Part shown: piece after piece, positions 24,142-56,145 of the stretch
Layout: every line of letters begins with the position of its first letter
How positions within the stretch are numbered: position 1 is the stretch's first letter
DNA from: Plumapathes pennacea
Taxonomy: Eukaryota; Cnidaria; Anthozoa; Antipatharia; Myriopathidae
NCBI GenBank assembly: GCA_964036295.1
Contig: OZ038464.1
Location: forward strand, 26,330,508-26,394,507
Length of the DNA stretch: 64,000 bases
Direction: 5' to 3'
Notes under the pieces: generated by a model
Told to the model about the DNA's origin: nothing
Seen by the model: only the letters and a program-made list of their open reading frames with translations
Databases searched by the model: none
Position numbers and translations under genes: made by a program

Positions 24142-27100
24142 ATGGATGAGAAACATCGTACTGTTCTGCGGCATCATTGGTCGGACCTGCGGAAAGATCT
24201 GGAACCAAAAAAACTGTTCCCTTACATGGTGAATGTCTTGGATGAGTCCGATGAGCAGGAGATCAAAGCGCAGGGGACTAGAGAGGAGCAGGCGGACAAA
24301 ATGCTAGAGATCCTCCCCAGGAGGGGTCCCCAGGCGTTTAAGAGTTTCGTCAGAGCCCTGGAGGGCACGCAGCCGTTCCTTGCTCACCCGCTTATTAAGG
24401 AAACTGGTAAGGGAATACTGACTAAAGACACATGTTTTCAGCACTTGAGCAATTGCATAAAACACTAGGAAATGCAAAGCCCAAAAAGGACTCTGGCTTG
24501 CTTGAAAAAACTTTAACTGAAACGTTTACCCTATTGCAGATGCTTCACTTTCAAGGTTGCGATATTTTCGTTCAAGATGGCGAACTTTCGGTTTATGTCG
24601 GAAGCTGACGCCAAAAAAGAAAAGAACAAAAAAAAAAAAAAAAAAAAAAAAAAAAAAAAAAAAAAGACAAACAAACAAACAAACAAAAACCATACATCAG
24701 TCGACCGTATTTGTGTACCAGTTGTCGAAATAGAAAGGGTGTACATGTAGTCCAACCTGTATTGAACGGCCCTGTATTAGGCGGACACAGTTGTGCAAGC
24801 CTGAAAAATTTACCCCCAGTAAGATACTGTAAACTCTATTTGTGTTAGGTGGACGCCCAGTTTGAAGCGGACACTTCACAGTTCCCCAACGCCGTCCGCT
24901 TTGACTGCTGTAATTATATAGTAGACAGAATGTAAGGGGTAACTATGGCCTAACTTCATCATACTCTTTTATTGGCTAGTTAAATCACAACCTGAGGAAA
25001 TTAAGTTTGGGTTTATTTATTCTTTTTTTTTTTTTCAGAGTTAGAAGAAATAAGAACGGAGCTCCACGCGGTCCGCTGTCACAGCGCTAAACTTCGCGAA
25101 GAGATTTTCACGGTGAAAGGACAATTAGAGGGAGAACGAAGCAAAAAGGAAAAGACGAGGAAAGAACTTGAAGAATTGAAGAGCATGCATCAAGCACTGC
25201 TGAAACAATCCAAGGAGGAGAAGCAAGGTTATGAAACGAGGATTAAAGAGCTGAAGAGAAGTAGCGCGGCACTAAAATCGCAACTTGCCGAGGAAAAAGA
25301 CAAGAAAGATATGCACTTGTCGGAGGTTAAAAGATTGCAAGAACTGTGCGATAATATGGACAGAAATCTTAAAGAAAACGAGAAAGATATATATGAACTT
25401 AAGAAGTCCTGCAGAAGAAGTGCAGAAGAGAATGACCGATTAATGCAAGAACTTGAGCAGTTTTCGGTCAACAAGGAACAGTCTCTTGAAAGAAGAGAGA
25501 GCAGTGGAGGCAGAAAAAAGCATTCGAGAGAAGAATCAATCGCTAGCTTTATAGGAATAGAGCGAGAAATATTAAGACATTTCGAAGACTCCGATGAAGA
25601 CAAAGAAAACTTAGAATGCATCACAAAACTAGTGACCAAAGAATCAAACAAATATGAACATGACATTGTGGAAAATCGGAATGGAACTGCATTAGACCCA
25701 AAAGTGGACGAGTTGGTTTCCAGGACACTGAAGGAGAAAGATGACGCGGTCAGGAAATGCAGAGAGCTGGAAACGCTGCTGCACAATGCGCAGGTGCGTG
25801 AGCTGGAGATGAAACGCAGGAGCCTGCGCGACAGGGCAACCTCGTTTGGAGACGCTCCACCGGATATGAACAGCCAGAGTGACGGTGGGTAAAATATTAA
25901 CATAAATAGAAAGAATATTCGTTTTTTTTTCTACATAGTCTCATTGGCAATACAAAAAGTGCAAGAGAATTGAAACATAAACCACTGACTACGTTTTCTA
26001 TTCAGATGCTATCGAGCATTCGGAGTGCACCAAGTGTGAAGAAACAGAGGAGATGTGTGCGAGTTTAGCAGCAGAGAAAGACAAACTGGAACATCTTCAG
26101 AAGAAACTGGAAGAGAAATTAGGGCAAGCAACCAAAAGAACAACAGAACTGAAAGAGAAACATCGCCGGGAAAAGGAAAACCTTGAGTTGGACATGGAAA
26201 ACTTAAGGGGAGACGCAGAGAGAACTGCGAGAGATCATGCAAACGAGATCAGAAATGTGCGGGAGGAGATGACAGAACAGCACTTAAGGGACGTCAAAAA
26301 CATCCAGGACCAGAAAATCGAGCTGAGCGAACAGATTGAGAGAAACAGCATCGAGAGGAACCTGCTAAGGGCTGACATAGAGAAAGAGAGAGCCAAAATG
26401 AAGAAACAATATTCCGAGCTTGAAGCGTCCAAGAAGAAGCTGAGTTTTGAGAAGAAACAGCTGAAAAACAAACTAGACCTGGAAGTGAAGGCGAGGAAAA
26501 AGGAGGCCAGCGAGGTTGCGGCAGCCTTTAAGGACAGTGAGAGGGAACAAAGAATGCTGATGGATGAGGCCGCGAGGTTACGACAGAGCCTTACAGTCGA
26601 GCAGGAGGCCATCAATCTACTGAAGGAGGAGATCTTGATATGGAAGACCCTGCCTGGAAGTAAGTGAACATAAGCGACTTTACCTCTGATAGTAACAAAA
26701 ACAAACAATACTATACAGTATTCTAAAGCAAACTGTACCCGCACTATCCGACGGCAGTGACGCTCGAAACGTCAGTTTAAAACTTTTTTAACGGTATTTA
26801 GCTATCCCACATAACTTTTAGAGGATTAATCACACGCTTTATATCCACACAGACGCAGTGCAAAACTAGTTCCCATAAGTATTAGGATTCCCTCGCTATA
26901 ATAGACACAAAAGCCTGGTTTTCAAGAGCGACGCTAGCACATAGTTCCTATTTCACAGCGAAAACAGGCTCAACGCAAAATTGTCCAAAATTTTGGCTTT
27001 CTCTGTGCTTGCGTCTCTCGGTTCCACAAACGCTTATAATCTCTTCTGCTTGCCTCGCTCGTGAAAATAGACAACTAACCAATACAAATATTTGTTACAC

Positions 27101-27653
27101 CACAGGAGTATTTAACTTTAAAAAAGAATTTGACCGAAATGGTGTCATCTACGCCCTGGGCACCAACTTCGCCACAACAACTTGGCTAAACCCTGCTAGT
27201 GCCAGTGCAACTCCGTTCCGTATAACCGTGACCCGGTCCTCCCACGACCAAGGCCACGCCATGGATCTGCTGGAAATCCGCAAAGGAACTCTGAGTTGTA
27301 CTAAAGACGAAGAGCGATCCTGGTGGTGTGTAGACCTTGGGGAGGAATTTGCGCTCTTCCTCACGCACTACACGCTACGTCACGGGCGGGACAACGGCCT
27401 GTCAGTCATCCGTCACTGGCGTCTTGAGGGCTCGCTCGATGGGCGAACTTGGAAGACGCTGAAGAGGCATGACAATGATCGCGGGCTCAAGGGTACTTAT
27501 CCGTTTTATACGGGGACTTGGAGTATCGATGGAGAGATATCGGCGATGAGATATTTCAGGATACTCCAGACGGGGAAGAACTCGTCAGGGAGATACGGAC
27601 TCTATTTGTCCGGATTGGAACTATACGGAGTTTTACTTGAATTGAAAGACTGA
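24142..27653 (+). CDS. CARD gene A: CARD - coiled coil - HECTD1-like SUN/galactose-binding protein
   Basis: Four exons with GT-AG borders: 24142-24406, 25039-25884, 26006-26659, 27106-27653; 770 codons, stop TGA. Residues 1-88 are a CARD, a six-helix death fold, with the helix 4-5 signature MLEILPRRGPQAFKSF. Residues 89-588 are almost wholly charged heptads (coiled coil) interrupted by an acidic/serine linker (ESIASFIGIE..., EDSDEDKENLE). A conserved SECTKCEE motif opens exon 3. Residues 590-770 match the SUN-type beta-sandwich of the ubiquitin ligase HECTD1: FDRNGVIYALGTN, WWCVDLG, YTLRHGRDNG, LEGSLDGRTW, QTGKNSSG and YLSGLELYG. No signal peptide or membrane segment, so probably cytosolic. 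CARD plus coiled coil suggests a self-assembling scaffold like CARD9/CARD11. Function is not known. The exon chain is inferred by splice consensus and phase, not from transcripts. Confidence 0.85.
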
Positions 27654-56000: not shown

Positions 56001-56145
56001 TCCGTTTTGTACGGGGACTTGGAGTATTGACGGAGAGATATCGGCCATGAGATATTTCAGGATACGCCAGACGGGGAAGAACTCGTCAGGGAGATACGGA
56101 CTCTATTTGTCCGGATTGGAATTATATGGAGTTTTATTTAGTTGA
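50072..56145 (+). CDS. CARD gene C: CARD - coiled coil (duplicated exon) - HECTD1-like domain
   Basis: Proposed exons: 50072-50336, 51928-52221, 53242-53493, 54130-54534 and 55619-56145; 580 codons, stop TGA. All introns are GT-AG and phase 1. Residues 1-88 are a CARD with MKLLDILPNRGPDAFHEF. Exons 2 and 3 are near copies (ETLANVRSSSANLRERIS and EALANVRSSSANLRERIS). Exon 4 begins with SECTKCKEN, as in gene A. Residues 406-580 are the beta-sandwich with WWCVDLG, YTLRHGRDNG, QTGKNSSG and YLSGLELYG; its first strand is shorter than in gene A, with the GTN...W segment missing. The first intron uses GTTCGT, a weak donor, and holds a 300 bp (ATT)n tract and a large palindrome, which could lower expression. 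The reading frame is open throughout, so it looks functional. Confidence 0.75.
50457..50759. repeat. (ATT)n microsatellite, about 300 bp
   Basis: Almost pure ATT with blocks of ATC, TTC and CTT variants in the middle. It lies in intron 1 of CARD gene C. Long poly-Ile/poly-Asn frames through it are artefacts. Confidence 0.95.
50840..51265. mobile_element. Penelope-like foldback: inverted terminal repeats with hammerhead-like core and tail
   Basis: Two arms of about 195 bp (50841 onward, and ending at 51234) form an almost perfect palindrome around a 5-base loop; I see one mismatch (GTGTATATG versus GTATATATG). A 31 bp tail (51235-51265) follows the right arm, and ATGCAATACGTTTT flanks the whole on both sides (50826-50839, 51266-51279), a 14 bp target duplication. 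Each arm holds CTGAAGAT, a 7 bp stem (GACTTCC with GGTAGTC) and GAAACGTC. Inverted terminal repeats, a 30-40 bp tail and hammerhead motifs are known features of Penelope-like retroelements. No reverse transcriptase is present. Confidence 0.65.
51521..54044. repeat. Tandem duplication of a 1.25-1.3 kb unit carrying a coiled-coil exon
   Basis: Copy 1 is 51521-52811 and copy 2 is 52812 to about 54044. Both start CGTTAGGACGTTTTATTGAA and end GCAAGTAAAGCAAAACAAAA. Each contains one exon of CARD gene C. The copies differ by an in-frame deletion in the exon (294 versus 252 bp), by an ATT tract (about 80 bp at 52650-52731 against three repeats at 53963) and by scattered changes. Confidence 0.93.

Follow-up and report, generated by a model that had tools for sequence, protein, structure and literature searches.

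TRIM proteins with a PRY-SPRY domain combine an effector domain, a coiled coil and a C-terminal beta-sandwich that serves in recognition, while HECTD1 carries a galactose-binding-like domain (GABD), MIB_HERC2 and HECT in that order, the human protein possessing a SUN domain. The binding partner of the HECTD1 GABD is, to our knowledge, not settled. Scaffolds of the CARD9/10/11/14 type begin with a CARD that leads into a long coil (CARD-coiled coil, CARD-CC). For such a CARD-CC protein from an anemone (N. vectensis), deletion of the C terminus is described as not activating it (PMC5978004), and invertebrate expansions of death-fold proteins with odd domain partners are already reported (PMC2575513, PMC8195603). 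Here we describe a tandem cluster of four genes, A to D, in the cnidarian Plumapathes pennacea. Genes A, B and C lie in a stretch of 64,000 nucleotides (the window; contig OZ038464.1, here C3, 26330508-26394507) of a 290-Mb, 24-contig genome (assembly GCA_964036295.1), on which the genome-wide profile searches were run, and gene D lies just beyond its downstream end. Genes A and C are predicted to encode proteins that join an N-terminal CARD and a charged coiled coil to a HECTD1-type GABD at the C terminus.

Domain architecture of genes A and C

Gene A extends from a start codon at 24142 to 27653 (770 residues, four exons), and gene C from 50072 to the stop codon that ends at 56145 (496 residues, four exons when the first copy of a duplicated exon 2 is used). 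The two genes follow the same plan of CARD, charged coiled coil and a GABD contained in one terminal exon (Table 1). All of their introns are GT-AG and lie in phase 1, each inner exon has a length divisible by three, and the splice donors fit six or seven of nine consensus positions. Gene B (36498-40986) has this plan save for its short last exon, and the GABD is present on two of the four tandem genes, B and D consisting of CARD and coil without it. The last exons of all four begin alike (RVFNF, RVFGF, RIYSL and RVYSR).

Pfam matches for CARD (1e-13 in A, 3e-11 in C) and F5_F8_type_C (8e-7 and 1.4e-8) exceeded the gathering scores in both proteins, as did the CARD match of B (PF00619, 4e-10), and the D CARD scored 52.7 bits in the genome profile search, above the cut-off. 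The GABD exons alone matched F5_F8_type_C at 4e-8 (A) and 2e-9 (C); A and C also matched F5_F8_type_C_2, full-length A barely at the cut-off. Pfam revealed no enzyme domain in the predicted proteins, and A, B and C contain no hydrophobic stretch suggestive of a signal peptide or membrane segment, their mean hydropathy over 19 residues reaching at most 0.84. The coil exons are rich in charge and mostly poor in Pro and Gly. In a home-made test of heptad contrast against shuffled sequences, they gave z values of 2.7 and 3.5 in A, 2.0 and 6.4 in C and 1.8 and 2.1 in B, the signal being weakest in B exon 2, compared with -0.7 for a GABD control. The sole CxxC motif of A, B and C, CTKC or CSVC, is found near the start of exon 3 (26006-26050, 38510-38530 and 54130-54170), and exon 3 of D, the one exon of that gene inspected, begins with a CxxC as well; our guess is that this motif clasps the coil via zinc or a disulphide.

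It might be argued that these exons come from different genes or from copies in decay, with no CARD-GABD protein being made. The cluster does hold two broken CARD remnants, and at the D locus a CARD exon has been replaced and has decayed. Neither GABD exon, however, has an in-frame Met upstream, and each must therefore join an upstream coding exon by splicing. Furthermore, the phase-1 junctions recur in all four genes, and the frames of A and C are open throughout. The GABD is under purifying selection, with an A-C dN/dS (ratio of amino acid-changing to silent substitution rates) of 0.35 by NG86 (bootstrap 0.21-0.53, with none of 300 replicates at or above 1) and of 0.55 by YN00. We consider it very unlikely that the exons are unconnected or decaying. 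The narrower proposal that the last exon is a gene of its own was rejected on the missing upstream Met together with the shared phase.

Kinship of the GABD with HECTD1

Used as a genome-wide query, the A GABD returned A, C, discoidin exons on contig C2 and three collinear pieces on the minus strand of contig C8 (681131-682894; 21.3, 13.9 and 17.6 bits). Because MIB_HERC2 pieces (680067-680810) and HECT pieces (671864-672663) are present in order on the same strand, the C8 gene appears to be HECTD1-like. When its four GABD exons were joined by eye, the A GABD matched the resulting domain at 98.6 bits (E 4e-31), with 35% identity over 181 columns, i.e. the whole domain, and the C GABD matched it at 77.8 bits (E 4e-23; 133 residues aligned). 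By comparison, the A GABD scored 16.5 bits with a full-length F5/8 domain from this genome and 34.7 bits with the best discoidin exon, these two F5/8 controls being a small sample from a genome search with at least 172 matches, in which 150 of 1240 candidates were scored; 200 shuffles of the HECTD1 domain gave 22.3 bits or less. Over a matched core (A residues 61-130) the scores were 53.5 bits for HECTD1, 33.1 for the discoidin exon and 15.8 for the full-length F5/8 domain, and the region that A shares with HECTD1 takes in an N-terminal block that the Pfam F5/8 match does not cover. On these alignments we assign the GABD of A and C to the HECTD1 type, to which it is closer than to two other F5/8 domains of the genome.

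The HECTD1-like GABD is interrupted by three introns, whereas those of A and C each occupy a single exon, suggesting that the domain was gained by an intron-losing route or that its introns were lost later. No relative of the A GABD or the A CARD was found in viral contigs, none of the A or C GABD in contigs from bacterial and archaeal genomes, and none of the A GABD in plasmids.

The order CARD, coiled coil, HECTD1-like domain was originally put forward in a first-pass annotation made from the letters of the window, and it is upheld here by the exon models, the Pfam cut-offs, the heptads and the scores of 98.6 and 77.8 bits against the HECTD1-like gene. The four blocks that it named as hallmarks of the HECTD1 domain (WWCVDLG, YTLRHGRDNG, QTGKNSSG and LSGLELYG) all occur in both A and C, and the likeness to HECTD1 that it drew from them extends over the whole A GABD and exceeds both F5/8 controls and the shuffles. 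Its local gene family can be recognized in the tandem genes A to D, but the GABD is confined to A and C.

What the CARD resembles

The structural model of the A CARD (predicted local distance difference test, pLDDT, 93) has seven helical segments, and its fold is nearest to those of Apaf-1 (template modelling, TM, score 0.92-0.94) and caspase-9 (0.93), whereas the two best CARMA1 entries reach 0.82-0.83. When a profile built from the CARDs of A, B and C was compared with solved CARDs, the best matches were RAIDD (1.5e-11) and Apaf-1 (6e-9), followed by BCL10 (1e-6), CARD9 (1.2e-6), caspase-9 (2e-6) and CARD11 (1.4e-5); the A CARD alone matched CARD11 at 9e-4. These comparisons, of sequence and of a predicted model, indicate that the A CARD is closer to the Apaf-1/caspase-9/RAIDD kind than to CARD9/11. 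The first-pass annotation had linked the proteins to the CARD9/10/11/14 scaffolds, a connection not supported in that form, RAIDD and Apaf-1 being the closer matches in sequence and Apaf-1 and caspase-9 in fold.

The same comparisons bear on the idea that A and C are lineage-specific CARD-CC members of the CARD9/10/11/14 kind, with BCL10 and a MALT1-like paracaspase as partners, and that the GABD is a new inhibitory or docking tail. The CARD and coil plan is common to both, the BCL10, CARD9 and CARD11 CARDs do match the A/B/C profile (1e-6 to 2e-5), and, according to PMC5978004, a CARD-CC protein, BCL10 and paracaspases are present in N. vectensis. In addition, in a tree of 29 rows, from which two short rows had been left out beforehand, the A, C and D CARDs adjoin a CARD on contig C1 (C1:33515603) whose best Protein Data Bank (PDB) match is CARD9 (E 0.004), but the support for this grouping, 88/84, is below the level starred by the tool. 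Support in this tree was insufficient for placing B or for uniting the four CARDs of the cluster as one clade. RAIDD and Apaf-1 nevertheless remain the better matches, the fold is nearer to Apaf-1 and caspase-9, and, among the candidates scored, neither the A exon 3 coil nor the B coil has a relative at 1e-5 beyond its own gene and D. Finally, a distinct cluster of CARD-plus-coil genes is present elsewhere in the genome. We regard membership of A and C in the CARD-CC family as unlikely.

That second cluster emerged from the genome search for CARDs, which gave 39 matches, four of them genes A to D. At 27 of the 35 other loci the sequence was read for about 1.7 to 9 kb downstream of the CARD, and at none of the 27 was a coil of the present kind or a GABD found. 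The genome-wide coil searches used A exon 3 and the B coil; among the candidates scored, the former found only itself at 1e-5 and the latter only B and D. On contig C4, at 15.41-15.51 Mb (15411759-15505868), eight tandem CARDs (loci L024, L030 and L031) form a separate set, with long coil exons following the CARD in both loci that were listed for coils, L024 and L031. The one CARD tested from this set matches CARD11 and NOD1 at about 2e-6, and the C4 cluster is a better candidate for the canonical CARD-CC family than A to D. The C1:33515603 locus (L040) consists of a CARD exon followed by a charged open frame of 431 residues.

Exchange of modules within the cluster

The A-type CARD exon and its flanks (24045-24608) are 87% identical to 71227-71781 at D, and directly upstream in D there is a degenerate first exon of the B type (71001-71227, resembling B 36411-36646), which lacks an ATG and is cut at the join. 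Because the A-type segment abuts this B-type relic, we conclude that the original CARD exon of D was replaced by an A-type copy. The coils of D remain B-like, and dN/dS between the A and D CARDs was at or above 1 in six of 300 bootstraps (nine of 300 in a second run). As read from these joins, the D CARD demonstrates a first-exon replacement and shows the cluster to evolve by exchange of its end modules.

The other end of the genes may have been exchanged as well. Silent divergence between A and C (NG86) is 0.44 (0.31-0.62) for the GABD, compared with 1.15 (0.68-2.13) for the CARD and 1.01 (0.66-2.15) for exon 3, two of 300 bootstraps being saturated in each of the latter. Either the GABD exon was copied between A and C later, or its silent sites are constrained, and since the A-C similarity around the GABD ends near the exon edges, the two cannot be told apart.

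Proposed function

We propose, with a probability of roughly one half, that A and C are cytosolic adaptors or sensors in which binding by the GABD and assembly by the coil expose a CARD platform. In this scheme, the coils would pair chains, and two or more paired GABDs are predicted to gain avidity for a partner or ligand. Clustering or release would then expose several CARDs together, which could seed assembly with a downstream CARD protein. Because of the likeness of the CARD to those of Apaf-1, caspase-9 and RAIDD, BCL10 would be no more likely a partner than a CARD-bearing caspase or its adaptor. B and D, possessing CARD and coil without the GABD, might serve as co-scaffolds or inhibitors within the same assembly. 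We infer the pairing by the coil, the recognition by the GABD and the seeding by the CARD from the domain content of the genes.

Several observations weigh against this proposal or the assignments on which it is built. The evidence for the proteins is the genome sequence of one species, and the donor of gene C exon 1 (GTTCGT) departs from the consensus at +3 and +4. RAIDD, the best match to the CARD in sequence, does not rank with the nearest folds, its TM score to the A model being 0.76. Single HECTD1 exons scored at most 21.3 bits in the genome search, no better than the best secreted-type discoidin exon (22.9), for which reason the controls described above were run, and the stronger kinship appears only after the exons were joined by eye. 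The first-pass annotation had looked to domain profiles and structure prediction to recognize both ends of the protein. The CARD and F5_F8_type_C profiles did so above their gathering scores, but Sad1_UNC (PF07738), which the HECTD1-like domain matches at 3e-17, gave no match to the A or C GABD at E up to 1. Likewise, structure prediction returned a helical death fold for the CARD but an unusable model of the GABD (two sequences, pLDDT 28), whose expected jelly-roll beta-sandwich fold consequently rests on sequence profiles, and a search of PDB with the GABD found nothing significant (best 0.15 for A alone and 0.28 for A and C). Lastly, the genome search revealed two close GABD copies, those of A and C, and not a large receptor family.

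The HECTD1 kinship also permits a different role, in which A and C are regulators or decoys, the CARD capping or sequestering another CARD protein and the GABD targeting this protein to a HECTD1 partner or the ubiquitin machinery. Besides the type of the GABD, its absence from B and D is compatible with such a role, and a review describes HECTD1 with Rps3 as promoting IkB-alpha degradation (PMC13124474). The lack of an enzyme domain by Pfam speaks against it, as does the fact that the present analysis does not point to a partner bound by the HECTD1 GABD, and we judge a regulator or decoy improbable.

The adaptor or sensor proposal can be carried further, to a new class of cytosolic animal sensor that is a death-fold relative of the TRIM proteins. 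In such a protein the HECTD1-type GABD would recognize a cytosolic ligand, a coil clamped by the CxxC, possibly as a zinc or redox clasp, would set the assembly, and the CARD would seed a caspase platform, with CARD and GABD exons being swapped in the tandem cluster. This extension is tentative, and we consider it rather unlikely.

Other features of the window and its surroundings

The exon coordinates and the CARD remnants are collected in Table 1.

Table 1. Exons of the CARD gene cluster and associated remnants, in window coordinates (z, heptad contrast)
Feature	Position	Strand	Remarks
Gene A exon 1, CARD, 88 aa	24142..24406	+	ATG start, donor GTAAGG, phase 1; PF00619 1e-13
Gene A exon 2, charged coiled coil, 282 aa	25039..25884	+	symmetric phase 1-1
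Gene A exon 3, coiled coil, 218 aa	26006..26659	+	CxxC (CTKC) close to start
Gene A exon 4, HECTD1-type GABD, 181 aa	27106..27653	+	TGA end; no in-frame Met upstream
B-type CARD remnant	33397..33696	+	internal deletion and disrupted frame; 98% similar to 41030-41329
Gene B exon 1, CARD	36498..36765	+	PF00619 4e-10
Gene B exon 2, coil	37263..37520	+	z 1.8, weak
Gene B exon 3, coil	38510..39499	+	CxxC (CSVC), 21-nt repeats; z 2.1
Gene B short last exon (RIYSLQ...)	40853..40986	+	phase as in A/C GABD exon; no GABD
Second B-type CARD remnant	41030..41329	+	broken
Gene C exon 1, CARD	50072..50336	+	PF00619 3e-11
Gene C exon 2, coil, first copy	51928..52221	+	z 2.0
Gene C exon 2, duplicate copy	53242..53493	+	same phase; usable instead of or with first copy
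Gene C exon 3, coiled coil	54130..54534	+	CxxC (CTKC); z 6.4
Gene C exon 4, HECTD1-type GABD	55619..56145	+	76% identical to GABD of A; no in-frame Met upstream
Gene D, just downstream of the window	CARD 71324-71588; exons 72445-72702, 73282-74217; last exon from 74546		last exon short

Depending on the use of the exon 2 duplicate, gene C forms of 482 or 580 residues are possible. The two copies (51928-52221 and 53242-53493) differ by a dN of 0.112 and a dS of 0.072, and in 230 of 300 bootstraps dN equalled or exceeded dS; this excess of amino-acid over silent change hints at relaxed or diversifying change in the tandem duplicate. Intron 1 of gene C holds a near-perfect inverted repeat (50840-51234) with 195-nt arms that are 99% complementary and a 5-nt loop. 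In B exon 3, tandem repeats of 21 nt at 39002-39210 extend the coil in steps of seven residues, and local segmental duplications of 91-99% identity surround the end of gene B (39496-43976).

Just beyond D, on the minus strand (locus L013, ~7697-9520), three open frames resemble death domains by eye, and the neighbourhood of D may be rich in death-fold genes. Exons at 15918-21102 on the minus strand resemble an armadillo-repeat gene, presumably of the SPAG6 type; five of them, tried singly, gave no Pfam match at 0.01. Ten open reading frames elsewhere in the window gave no Pfam match at 0.01.

Comparison with known systems

The cluster ties a HECTD1-type domain to death-fold signalling and offers a natural experiment, four adjoining genes with and without the GABD in which a CARD replacement has been caught in D. 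This replacement shows how innate signalling proteins could acquire new inputs and outputs. In the literature searched, which was covered in part and did not extend to cnidarian protein databases, no combination of CARD, coil and GABD is described, and the domain combination of A and C might yield an intracellular sensor of a novel type.

In relation to HECTD1, the A GABD is 35% identical throughout, including the N-terminal FDxNG...W.NPAS block and GKN.SG...LSGLE.YG. In the HECTD1-like gene, by contrast, MIB_HERC2 and HECT follow the GABD, which is spread over four exons and matches Sad1_UNC, whereas in A and C it is held in one exon and lacks this match. The N-terminal CARD and long coil of the CARD9/10/11/14 proteins recur in A and C, which carry a C-terminal GABD in place of the MAGUK region or tail and a CARD nearer to those of Apaf-1, caspase-9 and RAIDD, the tested CARD of the C4 cluster being more like CARD11 and NOD1. 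With the TRIM proteins that possess a PRY-SPRY domain, A and C share the plan of effector, coil and, as predicted from profiles, beta-sandwich, although the CARD replaces the RING and B-box and the beta-sandwich is unrelated. Bacterial bDLD3-NPCBM proteins also fuse a death-like domain to a domain of discoidin fold (PMC8195603), but they are bacterial and the latter belongs to another domain family; we take the resemblance to be likely convergent. Judged from the gene models, the architecture of A and C is real and unusual, a variant of the death-fold adaptor or scaffold, and given the trend already known among invertebrate death-fold proteins, the combination is surprising yet within that trend.

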